The translations under genes and the position numbers were made by a program. A stretch of DNA of 64,000 nt from IMG/VR virus record IMGVR_UViG_3300050821_016964, positions 1 through 64,000 of that record; one strand, 5' to 3'. Position 1 is the stretch's first letter. Every line of letters begins with the position of its first letter. Origin of the DNA: a virus. This document shows, piece by piece, positions 4,634-46,615 of this stretch. The notes under the pieces were generated by a model. The model saw nothing but the letters and a program-made list of their open reading frames with translations. It was not told the DNA's origin and ran no database searches.

Positions 4634-4662
4634 GTCGCTCCCTAGGGAGCGTGGATTGAAAC
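4634..4662 (+). CRISPR. solitary type I-C-like CRISPR repeat unit (29 nt), no array
   Basis: The element starts GTCGCTCCC and ends GCGTGGATTGAAAC. It contains the perfect 16-bp palindrome CGCTCCCTAGGGAGCG. Type I-C repeats are normally about 32 nt, with GTCGC at the 5' end, a stem-loop, and GTGGATTGAAAC at the 3' end. Here both ends are intact, and the length deficit fits loss of about three loop bases. No second copy, spacer series or cas gene is nearby. It lies in the 97-bp gap between two plus-strand genes, so it would be co-transcribed with them. Confidence 0.6.
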
Positions 4663-39500: not shown

Positions 39501-39941
39501 CTACAAAGGCCACCACCAGCGCAGGCCGGCGGCGTGATCAAAGAACTTCTGAGCATACGCCGCCCGCGTGGCCGCGTCCTTGGGCTCGGTCCCCGCAGGC
39601 ACCAGGGCCGAGAAGGGCCCCGAGTACTTCTGGAAGAACGCCGCCTGCCGGGCCGTGGTCGCCGTCGTCTGGAGCGCGGCCAGAGCCGCCTCGACGGTCC
39701 CTCCTGCCGCGATCACGTTCCCCGCCGCCGTGAAGCCGTCCGCTTCTGCGCTACACACGTCCGTCCGGTTCCGGTGCCCATCCCGGATCTCCGGCACATC
39801 GGTCCAGAAGAAACCGGCGACTCCGCGGTTGTCCCAGAGGACGACCAGGGAGAGCAGCACGATCACCACCCATTGCCAGTTAATGGACGTGGGCAGCGAG
39901 ATGGCGAATCGGCGGCGGGTCGGAAACGAGATGTACGACAT
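39501..39941 (-). CDS. single-pass membrane protein (146 aa)
   Basis: I chose ATG 39941, preceded by AAGGA, over ATG 39971. The sequence MSYISFPTRRRFAISLPTSI leads into one transmembrane stretch (WQWVVIVLLSLVVLWD), then a soluble Ala-rich helical domain ending in GLRWWWPL. Its start overlaps the PKD gene by 62 bp. A lysis or envelope role is possible from topology and neighbours. Confidence 0.6.
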   Translation of the reverse strand: MSYISFPTRRRFAISLPTSINWQWVVIVLLSLVVLWDNRGVAGFFWTDVPEIRDGHRNRTDVCSAEADGFTAAGNVIAAGGTVEAALAALQTTATTARQAAFFQKYSGPFSALVPAGTEPKDAATRAAYAQKFFDHAAGLRWWWPL

Positions 39942-40434
39942 GCGGCTTTTCCTTCGGCGCTTTCGACTCATGGTGACGCACCACGGGTGAAGGGGCAAGA
40001 CCCGCCGGCGCGGCCGCAGCGACCGCCGAAGTCATTGCAGCCGGCGCCGGCAGGATGGGTACGGGGTCCGGCGCGACTGACGCCTGTGTACCTCCAGGCA
40101 TCACGGTTACGCCGAAGTACCCGTATCCCTTGTAGCCGATCGCGTCGGTCACGATCACGGAGACGACGTAGTTTCCAGGCACCGCATAAACGTGTTCCAG
40201 ATCGAAGGATTGACCCTGAAGGCCAAGCGCCTCTGATCCTGAGCCGTCGCCGTAGTCGACAGTGGCTGTGCAGGAGCTTGGGGCTGGGTCGGTGAAGACT
40301 CCGGCCCGGCAGAATTCTCCGGGCGTGATGATGGCGTTGATTCCGGCATCGACCACCGGGGGGATAGGTTCGATCAGCGGTGCCAGGAGACTCCGGCACT
40401 CAAGCCGATCGAAGGTGAGGGGACGAATCTTCAA
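39880..40434 (-). CDS. PKD-domain protein with planctomycete-type N-terminus, TTG start (184 aa)
   Basis: The N-terminus MKIRPLTFDRLECRSLLAP resembles the conserved N-terminal signature of planctomycete surface proteins (LE.R.LLA). Residues about 25-115 are a PKD-type beta domain (TATVDYGDGSGSEALGLQG, DLEHVYAVPGNYVVSVIVTD). The rest is an Ala/Pro-rich and basic tail. The start is TTG 40434 with CCGGAGACAC upstream. That ribosome site is buried in the hairpin at 40437-40468. The signature suggests capture from a planctomycete host. Confidence 0.7.
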   Translation of the reverse strand: MKIRPLTFDRLECRSLLAPLIEPIPPVVDAGINAIITPGEFCRAGVFTDPAPSSCTATVDYGDGSGSEALGLQGQSFDLEHVYAVPGNYVVSVIVTDAIGYKGYGYFGVTVMPGGTQASVAPDPVPILPAPAAMTSAVAAAAPAGLAPSPVVRHHESKAPKEKPHVVHLVSDPPPIRHLAAHVH

Positions 40435-40436
40435 GA

Positions 40437-40468
40437 GTGTCTCCGGTGGGATTCAAACCCACAGACAC
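40437..40468 (-). promoter_or_regulatory. tRNA T-arm-like hairpin covering the ribosome site of the PKD gene
   Basis: On the minus strand GTGTCT pairs with AGACAC, and inside it GTGGG pairs with CCCAC around the 7-nt loop TTTGAAT. A CGG bulge lies on the 3' side. The inner stem-loop looks like a tRNA T-arm except that the usual C56 is U. The ribosome site GGAGA of the TTG start overlaps the 3' bulge and outer stem. A full tRNA cloverleaf cannot be drawn. It may act as a translational switch. Confidence 0.45.
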
Positions 40469-40672
40469 GGTGCCTTGCGTTCCTATCTACCCGCGGCATT
40501 TCGCGTCGGCCTTTTGAGAACGGGCACTTCAGAGACGCCGCATTTCCGTGGACCGCAACCCACTAGGGCGCGTGCTCTCTTCGCTGAGCGGCAGAGACAG
40601 AGACAGCCTACCACGATTCTCCCAGATGTGCAAACGACGTCGCCCGGCACTTCCGAGAAGCACCGAGCGACA

Positions 40673-40705
40673 GAGGGATCGTACGCGACCTACAAGTCCA
40701 TCAAG
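40673..40705 (+). repeat. 33-bp inverted copy of the terminase C-terminal segment (EGSYATYKSIK)
   Basis: This plus-strand segment encodes EGSYATYKSIK. The minus strand at 40863-40831, inside the terminase gene, encodes exactly the same eleven residues. The two DNA copies match at about 25 of 33 positions and every difference is synonymous. It sits in a 333-bp intergenic region (40435-40767) with no credible gene, directly against the CRISPR-like element. It may be a remnant of another terminase gene end. Confidence 0.7.
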
Positions 40706-40737
40706 TTTCAATCCGCCCCCAGAGTTAAATCCAGGGG
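40705..40737 (-). CRISPR. solitary CRISPR-repeat-like unit, degenerate (33 nt)
   Basis: The plus strand begins GTTTCAATCCGCCCCC and ends CCAGGGG after 33 nt, so the minus strand ends in GGATTGAAAC like a type I repeat. The first 16 bases are identical to those of the element at 43181 and the total length is the same. The internal stem is weaker here (CCCC with GGGG). No second repeat or spacer follows. Confidence 0.55.
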
Positions 40738-40767
40738 AACTCATTCTCTCAATAACCACAAATTAGG

Positions 40768-42525
40768 TCAAGCCAGAGTCACCCCCCGCTTGTCGCCGCC
40801 CTGCTTGCGTGCCCATGCCTTCTCCGCTGCTTTAATACTTTTGTACGTCGCGTACGAACCCTCTTGACTCTTCTTGTGCGCGAGCTTGGGCTTGTGGTAG
40901 TATAAACCAGTGTACATACACAGATAGCCTAGATTATCACATTGGTGGCTGTCCTTCGCCAGCGGCTTGTCTGTCACCTCACCGGCAACGACCTTGAACG
41001 CGTACCGCTCCATGTTGCGCACCAGGTGCGGGCAGGAGCCGCGGAGAATCCGGATCTTGGTGGTCCCGTCAGGCCGCACCCGGAGCCAGTCCTTGATCCG
41101 CAGAATGCGGCCCGTGGGATCATCGTACCCGTAAGTCAGCATCGTGCCACAGGTAGGCGTGCGGATCTTGAGCGTCTTGAACGCGTTCCGGTACTGGGTC
41201 TCGGGCAGCATGCCGGAGCCGAGCTCACGCAGGTTCCCCCCGTGCGAGTCGAACAGGTGGGCATACATCTCCAGGTCGCCGATGTGGTCCTTCAGGGCCT
41301 GGGCTAAGAGCGCCGCATCGCAGCCCCGGATGTACGCTTCGTCGTAGAAGTACACGTAGTCGCCGTAGAGTAGGGGGTCCACCCCTGGCGTGCCGTCGTA
41401 CTTCATGGGCGGGACAGCACAGAAGAGGAGCGCGCCGACCTTGAACCCGGGATCGATCGAGCAGAAGTGGCACCAGGACATGGGGATCGCGAACGGCTCG
41501 ACACCATGGACGCCGCGGGGGAAGAAGTGGCTCTCGAAGACGCGGGTGCCCGAGATCGCGAAGTCGCCGTCGATCCGGAGCCGGCGATCGTCGTCGGTCA
41601 GGCTGCTCTCGAAGTCTCGCTTGGCCCGCTCGGGCATGTGGACGTTGTCCCAGATCGACAGGAAGAACTCCTGCACCAAGGGCGTGGACGTGTCCCCCGT
41701 CTCCGCCTGCTCCTCGGCGATCGCCCCCGCCCGCTGGTGGAGCTCGAAGAGCGCCTGCGTCCCGACGTGCGGGGTGGCGCCCCACCAGAAGAAACCGTTG
41801 CGGTCAATCAGGCGCGCCATCGCCTCGGTAAACCATCCTTCGTTCACTACCTCCTCGTCAAAAATACATATGTCGACATCTACACCCGAGATTGCTTCGG
41901 GGTCCGCCTTGGACGAGTAAAAATTGCACTCCCACCCGTTCTTGAGGACCAGTTTGGTAGGAATCCCCGCCGCCTTCTTCTCCCACGAGATGTCCTTGAT
42001 CAGCCGGGGGGGGATCAGGGGAGGCGCGGGCTTGCCCCGGCCCAGGTCCCCGGGTCGCCGGGCACGCCAGACCTTCGTGGCCGGGTCCCGGATCATCTGG
42101 AACGAGCCGGCCCGGCCGAGCTTGCGCCAGATGACCTCGCCGATCTTGTTCATGTCCCGCGCAACGACGATGGCCCGGCCGTTCTCCCGCGGGTACTTGT
42201 CCGGGTTCGGGTGCATCCCCGTCATCGCCCAGCCGAGCTCGATCATCGAACTGGTCGTCTTGCCCGAGCGGTTCGAGCCGATCGCGACCCGCTGCCTGGC
42301 CATCGAGTTGTGGAACGCCCACTGAGCCGGCATCGGCTCGTAGATCCGCAAGGCCTCGCACTGGCGCCGCTCCAGCTCCAGGAGCATCGCCCGGACCCGG
42401 GCCACCTCCGTCGGCGCCAGCGTCCCCCCCTCGCCAGGGAGATGCAGCCCCGCGTTCTCCAGGACGACCGGATCGAATGCCCCGTGCCGGTGCCGCGGAC
42501 CCCCGATATTCCGCCGCTCGGGCAT
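40768..42525 (-). CDS. terL: terminase large subunit (585 aa)
   Basis: The ATPase part carries Walker A GSNRSGKTTS near 83-92 and Walker B VDICIFDEEVV near 214-224. The nuclease part begins CSIDPGFKVGALLF near 355 (first acidic residue), with YDEAYIRGCD near 395 and DSHGGNLREL near 425 as further acidic candidates. Length is normal for a large terminase. It packages DNA through the portal with the small subunit. The C-terminal segment EGSYATYKSIK is duplicated in inverted orientation just downstream. Confidence 0.9.
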   Translation of the reverse strand: MPERRNIGGPRHRHGAFDPVVLENAGLHLPGEGGTLAPTEVARVRAMLLELERRQCEALRIYEPMPAQWAFHNSMARQRVAIGSNRSGKTTSSMIELGWAMTGMHPNPDKYPRENGRAIVVARDMNKIGEVIWRKLGRAGSFQMIRDPATKVWRARRPGDLGRGKPAPPLIPPRLIKDISWEKKAAGIPTKLVLKNGWECNFYSSKADPEAISGVDVDICIFDEEVVNEGWFTEAMARLIDRNGFFWWGATPHVGTQALFELHQRAGAIAEEQAETGDTSTPLVQEFFLSIWDNVHMPERAKRDFESSLTDDDRRLRIDGDFAISGTRVFESHFFPRGVHGVEPFAIPMSWCHFCSIDPGFKVGALLFCAVPPMKYDGTPGVDPLLYGDYVYFYDEAYIRGCDAALLAQALKDHIGDLEMYAHLFDSHGGNLRELGSGMLPETQYRNAFKTLKIRTPTCGTMLTYGYDDPTGRILRIKDWLRVRPDGTTKIRILRGSCPHLVRNMERYAFKVVAGEVTDKPLAKDSHQCDNLGYLCMYTGLYYHKPKLAHKKSQEGSYATYKSIKAAEKAWARKQGGDKRGVTLA

Positions 42526-43112: not shown

Positions 43113-43155
43113 AAAAACACGGCCAGCCTCCCCCGCGCGACTGGGAAAGGCTGGC
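43113..43155 (-). terminator. intrinsic terminator between the regulatory cluster and terminase genes
   Basis: On the minus strand GCCAGCCT (43155-43148) pairs with AGGCTGGC (43129-43122) across an 18-nt loop. CGTG and then a TTTTT run (43117-43113) follow. It ends transcription of the genes at 43235-44692 and would make the terminase genes depend on another promoter or on antitermination. Confidence 0.65.
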
Positions 43156-43180
43156 TGTGCGAACTGCGTCCCTTGGAGAA

Positions 43181-43213
43181 GTTTCAATCCGCCCCCGACG
43201 GTGAGGCCGGGGG
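43181..43213 (-). CRISPR. solitary CRISPR-repeat-like unit (33 nt)
   Basis: The minus strand reads CCCCCGGCCTCACCG, then TCGGGGGCGGATTGAAAC. It has a stem of six G-C pairs (CCCCCG with CGGGGG) and the GGATTGAAAC end characteristic of type I repeats. It is in a 145-bp intergenic gap with no second copy, spacers or cas genes. The same 16 terminal bases recur at 40705. The minus orientation matches the local transcription. Confidence 0.6.
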
Positions 43214-43234
43214 AGAGCACACTATGCCCGAGCC

Positions 43235-43750
43235 TCAGGGCATCGTCAAGGTCGGCTCGCCCCGGATCTCCCAGCAGTGCGTGTACGTGAAGTTGCCACT
43301 CGACCGCTTCACGGCGTTCATCAACTTCACCGCCGTTCCCGTCGTCCAGTCACACAGAGGCTCCCAGCCAGCGTTGACATCGAAGATCCAGTGATTCCCC
43401 CCCTCGTACCGCGAGGCGATCCAGTGCGTGTACCGGTACCGGGCCCGGAACGGCACCTCCGGCGCCATCCAGGGACCGCCCCACTGCACCCGGACCACCC
43501 CGCGGTAGGGCAACTGGCTCGCCACCGTGCGGTGGTGCCGCAGCCCCAGCTTCGTGATCGCCTCGGCCATCATCGAGGGGTTCATGTACCCCCGCTGCTC
43601 GAAGTCCCCCAGGCGCGGCCGCACCTCCTCCAGCGAGCACCCGACCGCCGCAGCCAGAGCCGCGGGGCCGCAGTTACACCCCCACTCCTCGTACGCCGCA
43701 TCCAATTCGTCCGAGCTGAATCCACACCCCGGTCGCGTCGCGGTTCTCAT
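43235..43750 (-). CDS. C39/papain-like cysteine peptidase-fold protein (171 aa)
   Basis: WGCNCGPAALAAAVGCSLEE near 23-42 supplies a candidate nucleophile Cys at the start of a helix (Cys27, with Cys25 beside it). THWIASRYEGGNHWIFDVN near 105-125 gives a catalytic-type His followed by Asp/Asn. The order Cys, His, Asp/Asn fits C39-like and related hydrolases. The substrate is unknown. A processing or lysis enzyme is possible. Confidence 0.6.
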   Translation of the reverse strand: MRTATRPGCGFSSDELDAAYEEWGCNCGPAALAAAVGCSLEEVRPRLGDFEQRGYMNPSMMAEAITKLGLRHHRTVASQLPYRGVVRVQWGGPWMAPEVPFRARYRYTHWIASRYEGGNHWIFDVNAGWEPLCDWTTGTAVKLMNAVKRSSGNFTYTHCWEIRGEPTLTMP

Positions 43751-43762
43751 CGCCTCATCCTT

Positions 43763-44011
43763 TCAGAATGGTCTCTCCCACGGCTTCGGCTTGATCGGCA
43801 GCCTCGCCTCCGGTACCCCGTCTACGGTCCATCCCTTACTGGGCGAGTCGGGCGATAACCCTTTCGGAAGCCCCAGGAAGTCGAAGTACATACCACAGTC
43901 GGCACACTTGATCGTGATGTCCGCGCTATACGACTCGACGCGCCCTTCGTCATCCGTGAGACGGTTCACGTTCGTCATTGCCTCGAATGATTCGTGCTTA
44001 CACTCGGCCAT
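43763..44011 (-). CDS. small zinc-binding conserved phage protein (82 aa)
   Basis: I chose ATG 44011, preceded by CAGGAGACATCG. The protein starts MAECKHESFEAMTNVNRLTD and contains CADCGMYFDFLGLPKGLSP, a Cys pair that with the N-terminal Cys and His could bind zinc. ARLPIKPKP is near the end. The FxGLPxGL.P segment is familiar from small phage proteins of unknown function. Confidence 0.7.
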   Translation of the reverse strand: MAECKHESFEAMTNVNRLTDDEGRVESYSADITIKCADCGMYFDFLGLPKGLSPDSPSKGWTVDGVPEARLPIKPKPWERPF

Positions 44012-44295
44012 CGATGTCTCCTGTCCCAATCCTCGCGCAACCGCTCCGTGCCACACTCGTGGCGCGACAGCGTGTAGTCGCCCGTCAGGATGTCCTTGTG
44101 CAGCCGGTACGCCCCGTAATTCGTCCCCGGCAGCTTCTCCAGGAAGCGGTCCTCGGGAGACCTGCCGTCGATCATGGCGCCGATCACCGAATGCGGAAAC
44201 GCCTCATTGAACTCCCAGCGCGTGATCCTCAGGCACTCGCCCGGCTTCATGGACCAGGCTACCTCAAGCAGATACCACTCCATGGAAACACTCAC
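43975..44295 (-). CDS. hypothetical protein (106 aa)
   Basis: GTG 44295 follows AGGGCGAC. ATG 44283 is an alternative. The protein is MEWYLLEVAWSMKPGECLRI, then a mixed alpha/beta sequence, ending in a basic region. It overlaps the zinc-binding gene by 37 bp in another frame. No family is recognised. Confidence 0.6.
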   Translation of the reverse strand: MSVSMEWYLLEVAWSMKPGECLRITRWEFNEAFPHSVIGAMIDGRSPEDRFLEKLPGTNYGAYRLHKDILTGDYTLSRHECGTERLREDWDRRHRWPSVSTNHSRQ

Positions 44296-44311
44296 GAGCG
44301 TCGCCCTTTCG

Positions 44312-44692
44312 TCAAGGATTGCCCAACTGTTCTATCAGAATCTTCTCGATCGCATCTTGGAACTTGTCGAGCGCCTCGATGGCCAGGAAGGAATCCTCAT
44401 TGTCAAGTCTGTACTCGATCAGCGTCTCCCGATAGGCGTTCCGGATCAGCCCCTGGACCGTGTTCAACGCCTGAAGCGTCTCCAGACGCAGTGTCGCCTT
44501 GGGCCGCTCCACCGGGGGCGCCACGCTGACATGAACCTCATGCGATTCCCGGGATGGCTTAGTCTCCTTTAACCGGACACGGATCGCATCACAGAAACGT
44601 TGATCAAGACCATCGCAAGATCTGAGTACCCAGTGGAGATAGTCTTTGGGAATCTCCCCGAGATACCTCCCTTTGTACTTCCCGAATGGCAT
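44312..44692 (-). CDS. DUF3820-like protein (126 aa)
   Basis: The sequence MPFGKYKGRYLGEIPKDYLH, continuing WVLRSC, is the characteristic start of DUF3820 proteins, often seen in phages or fused to exonucleases. I therefore choose ATG 44692 with GAGGT upstream over the longer in-frame start at 44722. The C-terminal half is helical. The function of DUF3820 is not established. Confidence 0.7.
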   Translation of the reverse strand: MPFGKYKGRYLGEIPKDYLHWVLRSCDGLDQRFCDAIRVRLKETKPSRESHEVHVSVAPPVERPKATLRLETLQALNTVQGLIRNAYRETLIEYRLDNEDSFLAIEALDKFQDAIEKILIEQLGNP

Positions 44693-44717
44693 GATAGCTG
44701 ACCTCATGCGAATCTTA

Positions 44718-44746
44718 TTCATATTCTGATTTCGCAGTCCCATAAC
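44718..44746 (+). promoter_or_regulatory. possible plus-strand promoter for the structured RNA
   Basis: TTCATA (44718-44723) and CATAAC (44741-44746) are spaced by 17 bp and match the sigma-70 consensus at 4 of 6 positions each. They lie in front of the structured region and just upstream of the start of the divergent DUF3820 gene. Phage or planctomycete sigma specificity may differ. Confidence 0.35.
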
Positions 44747-44752
44747 CCTTCT

Positions 44753-45325
44753 CCTGGACCCAGTCCGCATCCGGGCAAGTAGGCCGGTTCACGGCCGTTC
44801 TCGTCGGTGGGGGCCATTCCCCACGAGGTACAAGGCTTGCTATCGCTCAGTCTGGTACCGGCAGCCGCCGGTAGGCTTCCTGCGATCTCCGACTAGGGGT
44901 GCTACATGACCCCCTTGCCCTCCGGGATGCAGCGGTCGGCAGAGCCCGGAATTTTTTGATTGAGTCGGTCGATCCAGAACGTTGTTCCCACGGGTTCCTG
45001 GAAAACCCGCTCCGTTTGCAACTAGGGAAAGCCAGTGGGCCATATGGGCACAGCCAGTGTGACGGCAGAGTGCGCAGGGAGACTGACCGGGGGTAACCCG
45101 TGGCGTTGCCCCGGACCACGGTCCGGATAGGCGCCCTTTCATTGACCCGGTGTTTTCGCGCAGATTCCCCGCCGCCACGTCGCGACAGCAAGCAGCAAAA
45201 TTGCGAGGTTCGCCTTGGCCAGATGATGTCTTTGGTGTAGGCTTCAAGGCGAAGGGTGCCCCGCGTACAACGGGAACCAAGTGGATGCCTCGGGGTTTAC
45301 GGGCCCCGGGGCATCTGCGTTTTTA
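44753..45325 (+). ncRNA. candidate large structured non-coding RNA (about 0.5 kb)
   Basis: All genes around this region are on the minus strand, yet the plus strand ends here in a strong intrinsic terminator with no plus-strand gene before it. The intervening sequence is packed with hairpins: GGCCG/CGGCC (44783), TGGGG/CCCCA (44811), TACCGGC/GCCGGTA (44855), CGGGTT/AACCCG (44992), CCGGACC/GGTCCGG (45112) and TTCGCCTTG/CAAGGCGAA (45209 and 45245). The only long frame (minus strand, 44840-45280) lacks a ribosome site and reads as low-quality shadow. It does not match tmRNA, RNase P RNA, SRP RNA or a group I intron core by eye. The 5' end is uncertain. Confidence 0.6.
45284..45324 (+). terminator. 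intrinsic terminator, plus strand
   Basis: GATGCCTCGGGG pairs fully (one G-U) with CCCCGGGGCATC across an 8-nt loop, giving a 12-bp stem, followed by TGCG and TTTTT. The T-run ends on the stop codon of the convergent gene at 45323. There is no matching T-run on the minus strand. Confidence 0.8.
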
Positions 45326-45556
45326 CCCTGTCTTCCCTTCGGCTGCAAGTCGTCTTCCGAATTCGTCCATGTCTTCCCGGCCACCGTGAATCGAAACGTA
45401 GTCCGGACGCGAGTTCCAATCCTCGACCGCACAATTCTCGAAGCGGATCTCAGCCACAAGCAAATCGCCCCATTCGGAATCGAATACCGCGACGTGAACG
45501 TTGCCCCGCTCCGCCTGGATCGCCTGGAGTTTCTCGATCATCTCGCTTATCCGCAC
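45323..45556 (-). CDS. hypothetical acidic protein (77 aa)
   Basis: GTG 45556 has GGGAGGCACC just upstream and overlaps the previous stop by 10 bp. The sequence (ISEMIEKLQAIQAERGNVHV, AVFDSEWGDLLVAEIRFE) is a compact alpha/beta protein of a kind found as small anonymous phage genes. No motif is assigned. Confidence 0.7.
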   Translation of the reverse strand: MRISEMIEKLQAIQAERGNVHVAVFDSEWGDLLVAEIRFENCAVEDWNSRPDYVSIHGGREDMDEFGRRLAAEGKTG

Positions 45557-45750
45557 GGTGCCTCCCTCACTTCGTAGTTCCCGCGGAGCTGAAGGTCGCG
45601 CTTCAGACCCGCGATCTCCTTGCCTATCTCTAAATCCTTCGCCAGAACCCCACGGTTAACAGGATGGTCCTCAGGCGCTAGCCAGAGCCACTCCAGGCCC
45701 AGCTTGAGCCGGTCCTGCTCACGCCGCTCGATCAGTTCAGAAAGCATCAT
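45547..45750 (-). CDS. hypothetical helical protein (67 aa)
   Basis: ATG 45750 is preceded by GCGAGGAAACCCG. The protein MMLSELIERREQDRLKLGLE is helical and charged, with KDLEIGKEIAGLKRDLQLRG suggesting a short coiled coil. No family is recognised. Confidence 0.65.
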   Translation of the reverse strand: MMLSELIERREQDRLKLGLEWLWLAPEDHPVNRGVLAKDLEIGKEIAGLKRDLQLRGNYEVREAPCG

Positions 45751-45943
45751 CGGGTTTCCTCGCTGCCTTGAGTTCCTTCCTGTATCGCCTCGACGGCACG
45801 ATGCTACGGCGACAACCTGGGCAGCGCGTGACGTAACCAGCGGCCCGACCGTGGAATTTCCGTAGGGTGACCTTCCAGCCCTTGAGCGTGTCGTCATCCT
45901 CCGGATGCTTGCCGCAGAAGTAGCACGTCACATCGGCCTGCAT
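45737..45943 (-). CDS. small zinc-ribbon protein (68 aa)
   Basis: ATG 45943 overlaps the upstream stop (TGATG). Cys pairs CYFCGKH near 7-13 and CPGCR near 43-47 form a four-Cys zinc ribbon. The rest is basic (LRKFHGRAAGYVTR, RRYRKELKAARK), suggesting nucleic-acid binding. Confidence 0.7.
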   Translation of the reverse strand: MQADVTCYFCGKHPEDDDTLKGWKVTLRKFHGRAAGYVTRCPGCRRSIVPSRRYRKELKAARKPDDAF

Positions 45944-46485
45944 CAATCCTCCGACGGGGGCTTGGCCGAGTTGACGGGATCGTTCGCGGCACCCTCCCGG
46001 AAGCGGGCGCGGGTGTCCTGGGCCCACTGGGGCTCCGGCTCCGGCGGCGGGGGGATCTCCTCGGGGTCCAGGATATCCCGGATCGCCACCACCTCGTAGA
46101 TTACCGAATCGCAGAGCGGGCAGAACCGCACCGTCATCCGCTCGCTCATCACCTCGGCCCGGGTCGCTAAGGCCTCGACGCCGGCCCGCAGAGCGTCCAG
46201 GTGCTTCTCGCAGCACGCCGGGGCCCGGATCACCCGGCAGAGCACGGCAGCCCCGAGGCGGGTCGCCTGCTCCCGCGTGACGAACCATTTCCGGGCCTCG
46301 TTGTCCCACCGGCCGCCGACTGCGGAGATCCTGGCGCGGAACGGGTACGTGTCCCGCCCGGCCAGGAAGTAATCCCCCTGCCCCGTCGGCCACGCTTCCA
46401 GTGTCCCCCGGGCCGCGCTCGACCGGGAGCAAGATTCTTGCCGCAGCCGGAACGGCGCCTCGGGTGCGCTTCTTGGTTTCCTCAT
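45943..46485 (-). CDS. protein with DTYPxR..I.A.GGRWD domain and zinc finger (180 aa)
   Basis: I chose ATG 46485, which follows GCGGGGGAACC. Residues about 35-70 contain YFLAGRDTYPFRARISAVGG, continuing RWDNEARKWFV, a small domain I recognise from many phage and bacterial proteins of unknown role. A FCPLCD finger lies near 130, and the tail is Pro/Glu-rich. It is the first minus-strand gene behind the divergent promoter. Confidence 0.65.
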   Translation of the reverse strand: MRKPRSAPEAPFRLRQESCSRSSAARGTLEAWPTGQGDYFLAGRDTYPFRARISAVGGRWDNEARKWFVTREQATRLGAAVLCRVIRAPACCEKHLDALRAGVEALATRAEVMSERMTVRFCPLCDSVIYEVVAIRDILDPEEIPPPPEPEPQWAQDTRARFREGAANDPVNSAKPPSED

Positions 46486-46526
46486 CTCGGTTCCCCCGCA
46501 AATGTTCCGCACTGCCAGACACGGGG

Positions 46527-46555
46527 ATTATAGACCGGTTCGCAGCCCACGTCCA
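46527..46555 (-). promoter_or_regulatory. sigma-70-type promoter, minus strand
   Basis: On the minus strand TATAAT (46532-46527) is a perfect -10 hexamer, and TGGACG lies 17 bp upstream (46555-46550) as a 4-of-6 -35. It points at the gene starting at 46485, about 40 bp away. Confidence 0.6.
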
Positions 46556-46586
46556 GAGGAAAGTGGTAGGAAATGGTACGCGACAC

Positions 46587-46615
46587 TTGACGCCTATCGT
46601 AGGCTGTGGTAGGCT
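46587..46615 (+). promoter_or_regulatory. sigma-70-type promoter, plus strand (early/replication block)
   Basis: TTGACG (5 of 6) and TAGGCT (3 of 6) are spaced by 17 bp, 26 bp before the first gene of the plus-strand block. GTAGGCT occurs twice in this stretch (46600 and 46609), a short direct repeat that could bind a regulator. The promoter is back to back with the minus-strand promoter. Confidence 0.5.

Follow-up and report, generated by a model that had tools for sequence, protein, structure and literature searches.

Genes and features at the locus

The DNA analysed here, referred to as the window, comprises bases 1-64000 of a 69,793-base virus record from IMG/VR, and the whole record was used for genome scans. 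The phage group of this record is known almost only from metagenomes. The terminase is <=30% identical to those of INPHARED phages, the capsid protein matched no INPHARED phage by tblastn, and single-sequence searches with the terminase and Rad52 retrieved no relatives. Two alignments (A1 and A2) led to loci L008-L087 and L089-L167 (167 loci fetched in all), and terminase alignments revealed among them an IMG/VR phage group (L089-L166) at 36-41% terminase identity as well as one terminase relative on a Pirellulaceae contig (L167). Because the terminase relatives include this contig, the host lineage is probably planctomycete. ARAGORN found zero tRNAs within the window.

A cassette of small minus-strand genes (43117-46600) separates the terminase genes (terS/terL) from the rightward genes, which begin with a Rad52-like annealing gene. 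As the first-pass annotation had stated for the neighbouring genes, all genes in 43235-46485 run on the minus strand. The whole cassette is missing from two relatives, L009 and L095, in which the Rad52-like gene directly adjoins the terminase genes; the 43.1-46.6 kb cassette is therefore regarded as an addition in this lineage. The stretch under study fills the gap 44744-45322 exactly and, when read on the plus strand, is divergent from the gene on its left and convergent with the gene on its right (Table 1).

Two more gaps, each about 0.8 kb long, contain neither recognisable genes nor strong terminators; they lie at 39941-40768 and, past the end of the window, at record bases 66356-67111 (L004:6356-7111). 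On the minus strand at 40440-40475, downstream of the terminase gene, there is a perfect tRNA T-arm-like sequence, GTGGGTTTGAATCCCAC, followed by CGGAGAC. Neither ARAGORN nor Rfam reported a tRNA at this position, and the sequence is possibly an attachment-site remnant or a product of chance.

Table 1. Features of the stretch, its neighbours and comparable hairpins in the genome (energies in kcal/mol)
Feature	Position	Strand	Description
Left neighbour	44312-44743	-	143 aa; AGGAG ribosome site; N-terminal match to Pfam QSregVF_b (PF12843)
Proposed non-coding RNA body	44750-45280	+	Non-coding in all frames; folding as expected from base composition; relatives not found
Longest open frame	44840-45280	-	146 aa, TTG start; judged not to be a gene
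Weak terminator-like hairpin	44921-44957	+	TCCGGG/CCCGGA, A, T6; -13.6; chance level
Intrinsic terminator	45281-45324	+	17-pair stem with UACG loop (45281-45318), G, T5 (45320-45324)
Right neighbour	45323-45556	-	77 aa; weak phrog_6992 match (function unknown)
Terminator, genome scan	45319 (scan position of the 45281-45324 element)	+	-31.5 in the scan (-30.1 when the hairpin is folded singly)
Terminator, genome scan	59554	-	-30.0
Terminator, genome scan	43117	-	about -29.5
Terminator, genome scan	61830	-	-23.5
CRISPR-repeat-like hairpin	43181-43213	-	Rfam CRISPR-DR9, 28.0 bits, E 9.9e-5, below gathering score
CRISPR-repeat-like hairpin	40705-40740	-	CRISPR-DR9, 18.9 bits, E 0.16, below gathering score
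CRISPR-repeat-like hairpin	4634-4662	+	CRISPR-DR9, 18.6 bits, E 0.053, below gathering score

The stretch lacks coding signal

Coding potential was scored with a 3-periodic Markov model trained on long genes of this phage. Scores across 44660-45380 were negative in all six frames with the exception of the far end (44660-45289 was wholly negative), and this segment ranks among the least coding-like of the regions profiled. The first-pass annotation had described the only long frame as lying on the minus strand without a ribosome site, and we agree: its coding scores are negative and its sole Shine-Dalgarno-like motif, GAGG, falls inside the terminator stem. A conserved protein in this frame, which had been named as an argument against an RNA, did not turn up in Pfam, PHROG or INPHARED. 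Short peptides encoded on the plus strand were also considered, such as MTPLPSGMQRSAEPGIF at 44906-44959, a 17-codon ATG frame that has AGGGG upstream and ends in the T6 of the weak hairpin. Such products are very improbable, as no plus-strand frame of at least 12 codons carries a convincing Shine-Dalgarno site and the coding scores are negative.

A strong intrinsic terminator on the plus strand

The analysis confirms the plus-strand terminator at 45281-45324. A 12-bp G-C rich stem followed by TTTTT had originally been placed at 45284-45324; the terminator stands, and its stem is longer than assumed, starting at 45281 and consisting of 17 continuous pairs, five of which are G-U. The hairpin reaches -30.1 kcal/mol as plus-strand RNA versus -20.9 as minus-strand RNA, the weaker minus fold arising because the five G-U pairs of the plus strand turn into A-C mismatches. 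As these G-U pairs can be formed by plus-strand RNA only, the terminator appears to be made for plus-strand reading.

The whole record was scanned for hairpins followed by a T-run, and the complete 69.8-kb genome, dinucleotide-shuffled 100 times, provided the null. Four outstanding terminators emerged, and the one at 45281-45324 is the strongest (Table 1). None of the 100 shuffled genomes reached -29 or lower (minimum -28.1), and values of -24 or lower occurred at a rate of 0.11 per genome. The element thus combines a strong GC hairpin, a directly following U-tract and a stability beyond chance. All three minus-strand terminators of the genome fold slightly better on the minus strand, i.e., on the strand on which they would act, and this renders the plus bias of the 45281-45324 hairpin meaningful. 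Strong terminators are also present in the phage relatives, for the most part on the strand that encodes the terminase, which indicates that intrinsic termination is in use within this phage group.

Part of the T-run of the plus-strand terminator coincides with the stop codon of 45323-45556, the convergent gene, which makes the T5 somewhat less remarkable. This arrangement, together with the start of the hairpin only 4 bases past the same stop codon, would fit a hairpin that serves mainly as the 3' end of the minus-strand gene or as an insulator of convergent transcription, with the gap acting as a spacer or leader for 44312-44743. A minus-strand hairpin immediately before the ribosome site of 44312-44743 points in the same direction, as does the one 120-base minus-strand window that stands out by its folding (at 44760, z -2.88). 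We nevertheless consider this explanation improbable, since the minus form loses 6 of the 17 pairs and is not followed by a U-tract, whereas all three minus-strand terminators of the genome have one.

Searches for RNA families and relatives

The Rfam/Infernal search that the first-pass annotation had suggested as a check matched no family, GOLLD, ROOL and RNase P included: only chance matches were obtained for the stretch with the gathering cut-off and with E <= 10. Single-model searches for GOLLD (RF02032) and ROOL (RF03087) at E <= 10 likewise gave no match, with a positive control that was below the cut-off (GOLLD) or present in no control genome (ROOL). Motifs seen by eye had raised the possibility of an RNase P RNA. 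This candidate was rejected, as RF00010 gave no match at E <= 10 with a model that found RNase P in 4 of 4 Pirellulaceae genomes tried, and the P4 strands were not complementary by eye. A group I intron, also suspected by eye, was dismissed because Rfam gave no match and because inspection by eye showed no AGTC that could pair with GACT between it and the terminator.

Relatives of the stretch were not found by blastn against phages, by blastn and nhmmer against all fetched loci (L008-L087, L089-L167; best E 0.5), in whole records (sets of 33 and 36) or in 241 Pirellulaceae genomes. Two short matches were discarded. A 30-nt match to a Bradyrhizobium plasmid did not extend, lay in IS-rich DNA and was attributed to chance, while a 33-nt Pirellulaceae match proved to be a GGCCGGTT..CGGCC hairpin between convergent genes, for which a pattern search revealed no shared family. 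Exact patterns from the body yielded 0, 5, 0 and 0 matches in viral contigs; the five 17-mer matches correspond to about chance expectation, and the best of them is in L171. In translation the L171 match gives KDIIW, a string also present in terminases; decayed coding sequence was considered as an explanation and not upheld.

The body folds as its base composition predicts

According to the first-pass annotation the stretch is packed with stable hairpins. Hairpins are predicted by a G+C content of 0.62, and the body folds no better than its shuffles. Caution is therefore advisable: at 62% G+C any 0.5 kb seems hairpin-rich, and it is the terminator alone that carries evidence. Compared with shuffles, the full stretch including the terminator gave folding z values of -2.3 on the plus and -1.8 on the minus strand; the body 44750-45280 without the terminator gave, in two runs, -0.78 and -1.18 on the plus and -1.29 and -1.92 on the minus strand, and its 3' two-thirds gave 0.0 on the plus strand. 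The z values of 48 windows of the same genome were scattered over the range of the body. When the plus strand was divided into 120-base windows, values below the 5th percentile occurred only where a window touched the terminator. RNase P RNAs from two Pirellulaceae (G+C 0.56 and 0.64) served as controls and reached z values of -3.5 and -4.5 on the RNA strand (opposite strand: -3.8 and -6.3), from which it follows that a compact RNA of such size and G+C would have shown up. Stability beyond composition, the hallmark of a large structured RNA, was found for the body on neither strand. The missing excess does not by itself argue against a function of the body.

These values bear directly on the idea of a large, elaborately structured RNA that resembles GOLLD and ROOL yet forms a class of its own. 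The phage setting, the length of about 0.5 kb and the possession of a terminator would all be in line with it. It is highly improbable all the same, given body z values of -0.8 to -1.9 as opposed to -3.5 to -6.3 for the RNase P controls, and the lack of Rfam matches, of a tRNA island and of homologues in the searches described above. The original proposal of a phage non-coding RNA of unknown class is accordingly retained in part: the terminator and its strand bias speak for an orphan transcript, and the likeness to GOLLD and ROOL is not supported, for want of folding excess, Rfam matches, relatives in the searches made, a promoter and a tRNA island.

Solitary CRISPR-repeat-like hairpins

Three intergenic, solitary CRISPR-repeat-like elements, each a hairpin followed by GGATTGAAAC, were observed in the genome (Table 1). 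The 10-mer GGATTGAAAC was seen 3 times versus about 0.06 occurrences estimated by chance. The element at 43181-43213 directly precedes the strong minus-strand terminator at 43117. A comparison of one of the three elements with 392 genomes of the planctomycete phylum gave no match. Solitary repeats carried by phages have been described as RNA anti-CRISPRs (Racrs; PMC10651486), and by analogy the three hairpins are candidate Racrs. We regard them as more notable than the 0.5-kb stretch itself.

A tentative non-coding transcription unit

A plus-strand terminator without a plus-strand gene before it renders an orphan non-coding transcript plausible, and the terminator and the anatomy of the gap make a plus-strand transcript as such likely. 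Our best reading, which we put forward tentatively, is a lineage-specific plus-strand unit that makes a non-coding transcript of about 0.5 kb. The unit would have been inserted as cargo among the small minus-strand genes between terS/terL and the Rad52-like gene. RNA polymerase would start at an unrecognised promoter near 44750, cross 44750-45280 without a protein being made and stop at 45281-45324, where the convergent gene 45323-45556 also has its 3' end. The transcript may act as a regulatory RNA in cis or by pairing, the latter being proposed because it would be antisense to transcripts that read through the small-gene operon on the minus strand.

Several points weigh against such a unit. 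No sigma-70-like promoter was found on the plus strand in 43500-46500 with a consensus that may not be that of the host, the body folds like its shuffles, and the T-run is in part a stop codon. In addition, as no homologue was found, nothing points to selection acting on the body. G-C skew was uninformative on the strand of the stretch.

Chief among the alternatives is a relic: a cargo gene (moron) on the plus strand would have degenerated until only its strong terminator is still recognisable, and any transcript would be functionless. The small-gene cassette is lineage-specific and the body has neither coding nor folding signal, as would be expected of a relic, and a scrap within the 3' part resembles minus-strand coding sequence (the KDIIW match, 45 nt in common with L171), albeit selected by a 17-mer and near chance. 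On the other hand, none of the six frames keeps any similarity to a protein of the 167 loci, and the wobble-rich yet unbroken stem suggests that the terminator is still maintained. We therefore consider a decayed gene unlikely, if to be taken seriously. Hardly any weight is given to the notion of a new large RNA class confined to a phage lineage that has escaped sampling, which might serve as an RNA-based counter-defence factor, an idea that stems from the solitary CRISPR-repeat-like element at 43181-43213 in the same cassette.

If the proposed transcription unit is taken as the working model, the stretch is one orphan unit without homologues and adds a candidate. Should the transcript be shown, the non-coding RNAs of phages would gain one from a lineage (probably phages of planctomycetes) for which metagenomes are almost the sole source.

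Comparison with known systems

ROOL (RF03087) and GOLLD (RF02032) are defined by covariation across many genomes (PMC12286853). The proposed transcript would resemble them in being phage-encoded, hundreds of bases long, devoid of protein and of unknown function. A tRNA island beside GOLLD or ROOL is usual, not obligatory. Unlike these RNAs, the stretch has no match to their models (with no positive control above the cut-off in either search), no tRNA island, no folding excess and no family of homologues. Phage morons are cargo units, each equipped with a promoter and a terminator. The stretch shares with them the small size of an inserted unit, the opposite orientation, the terminator of its own and the absence from relatives, and differs in having neither a protein nor a recognisable promoter. 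Most phage-encoded small and antisense RNAs are shorter than the proposed transcript of about 0.5 kb; like those with intrinsic terminators, the stretch is non-coding and ends in a hairpin followed by a U-tract.
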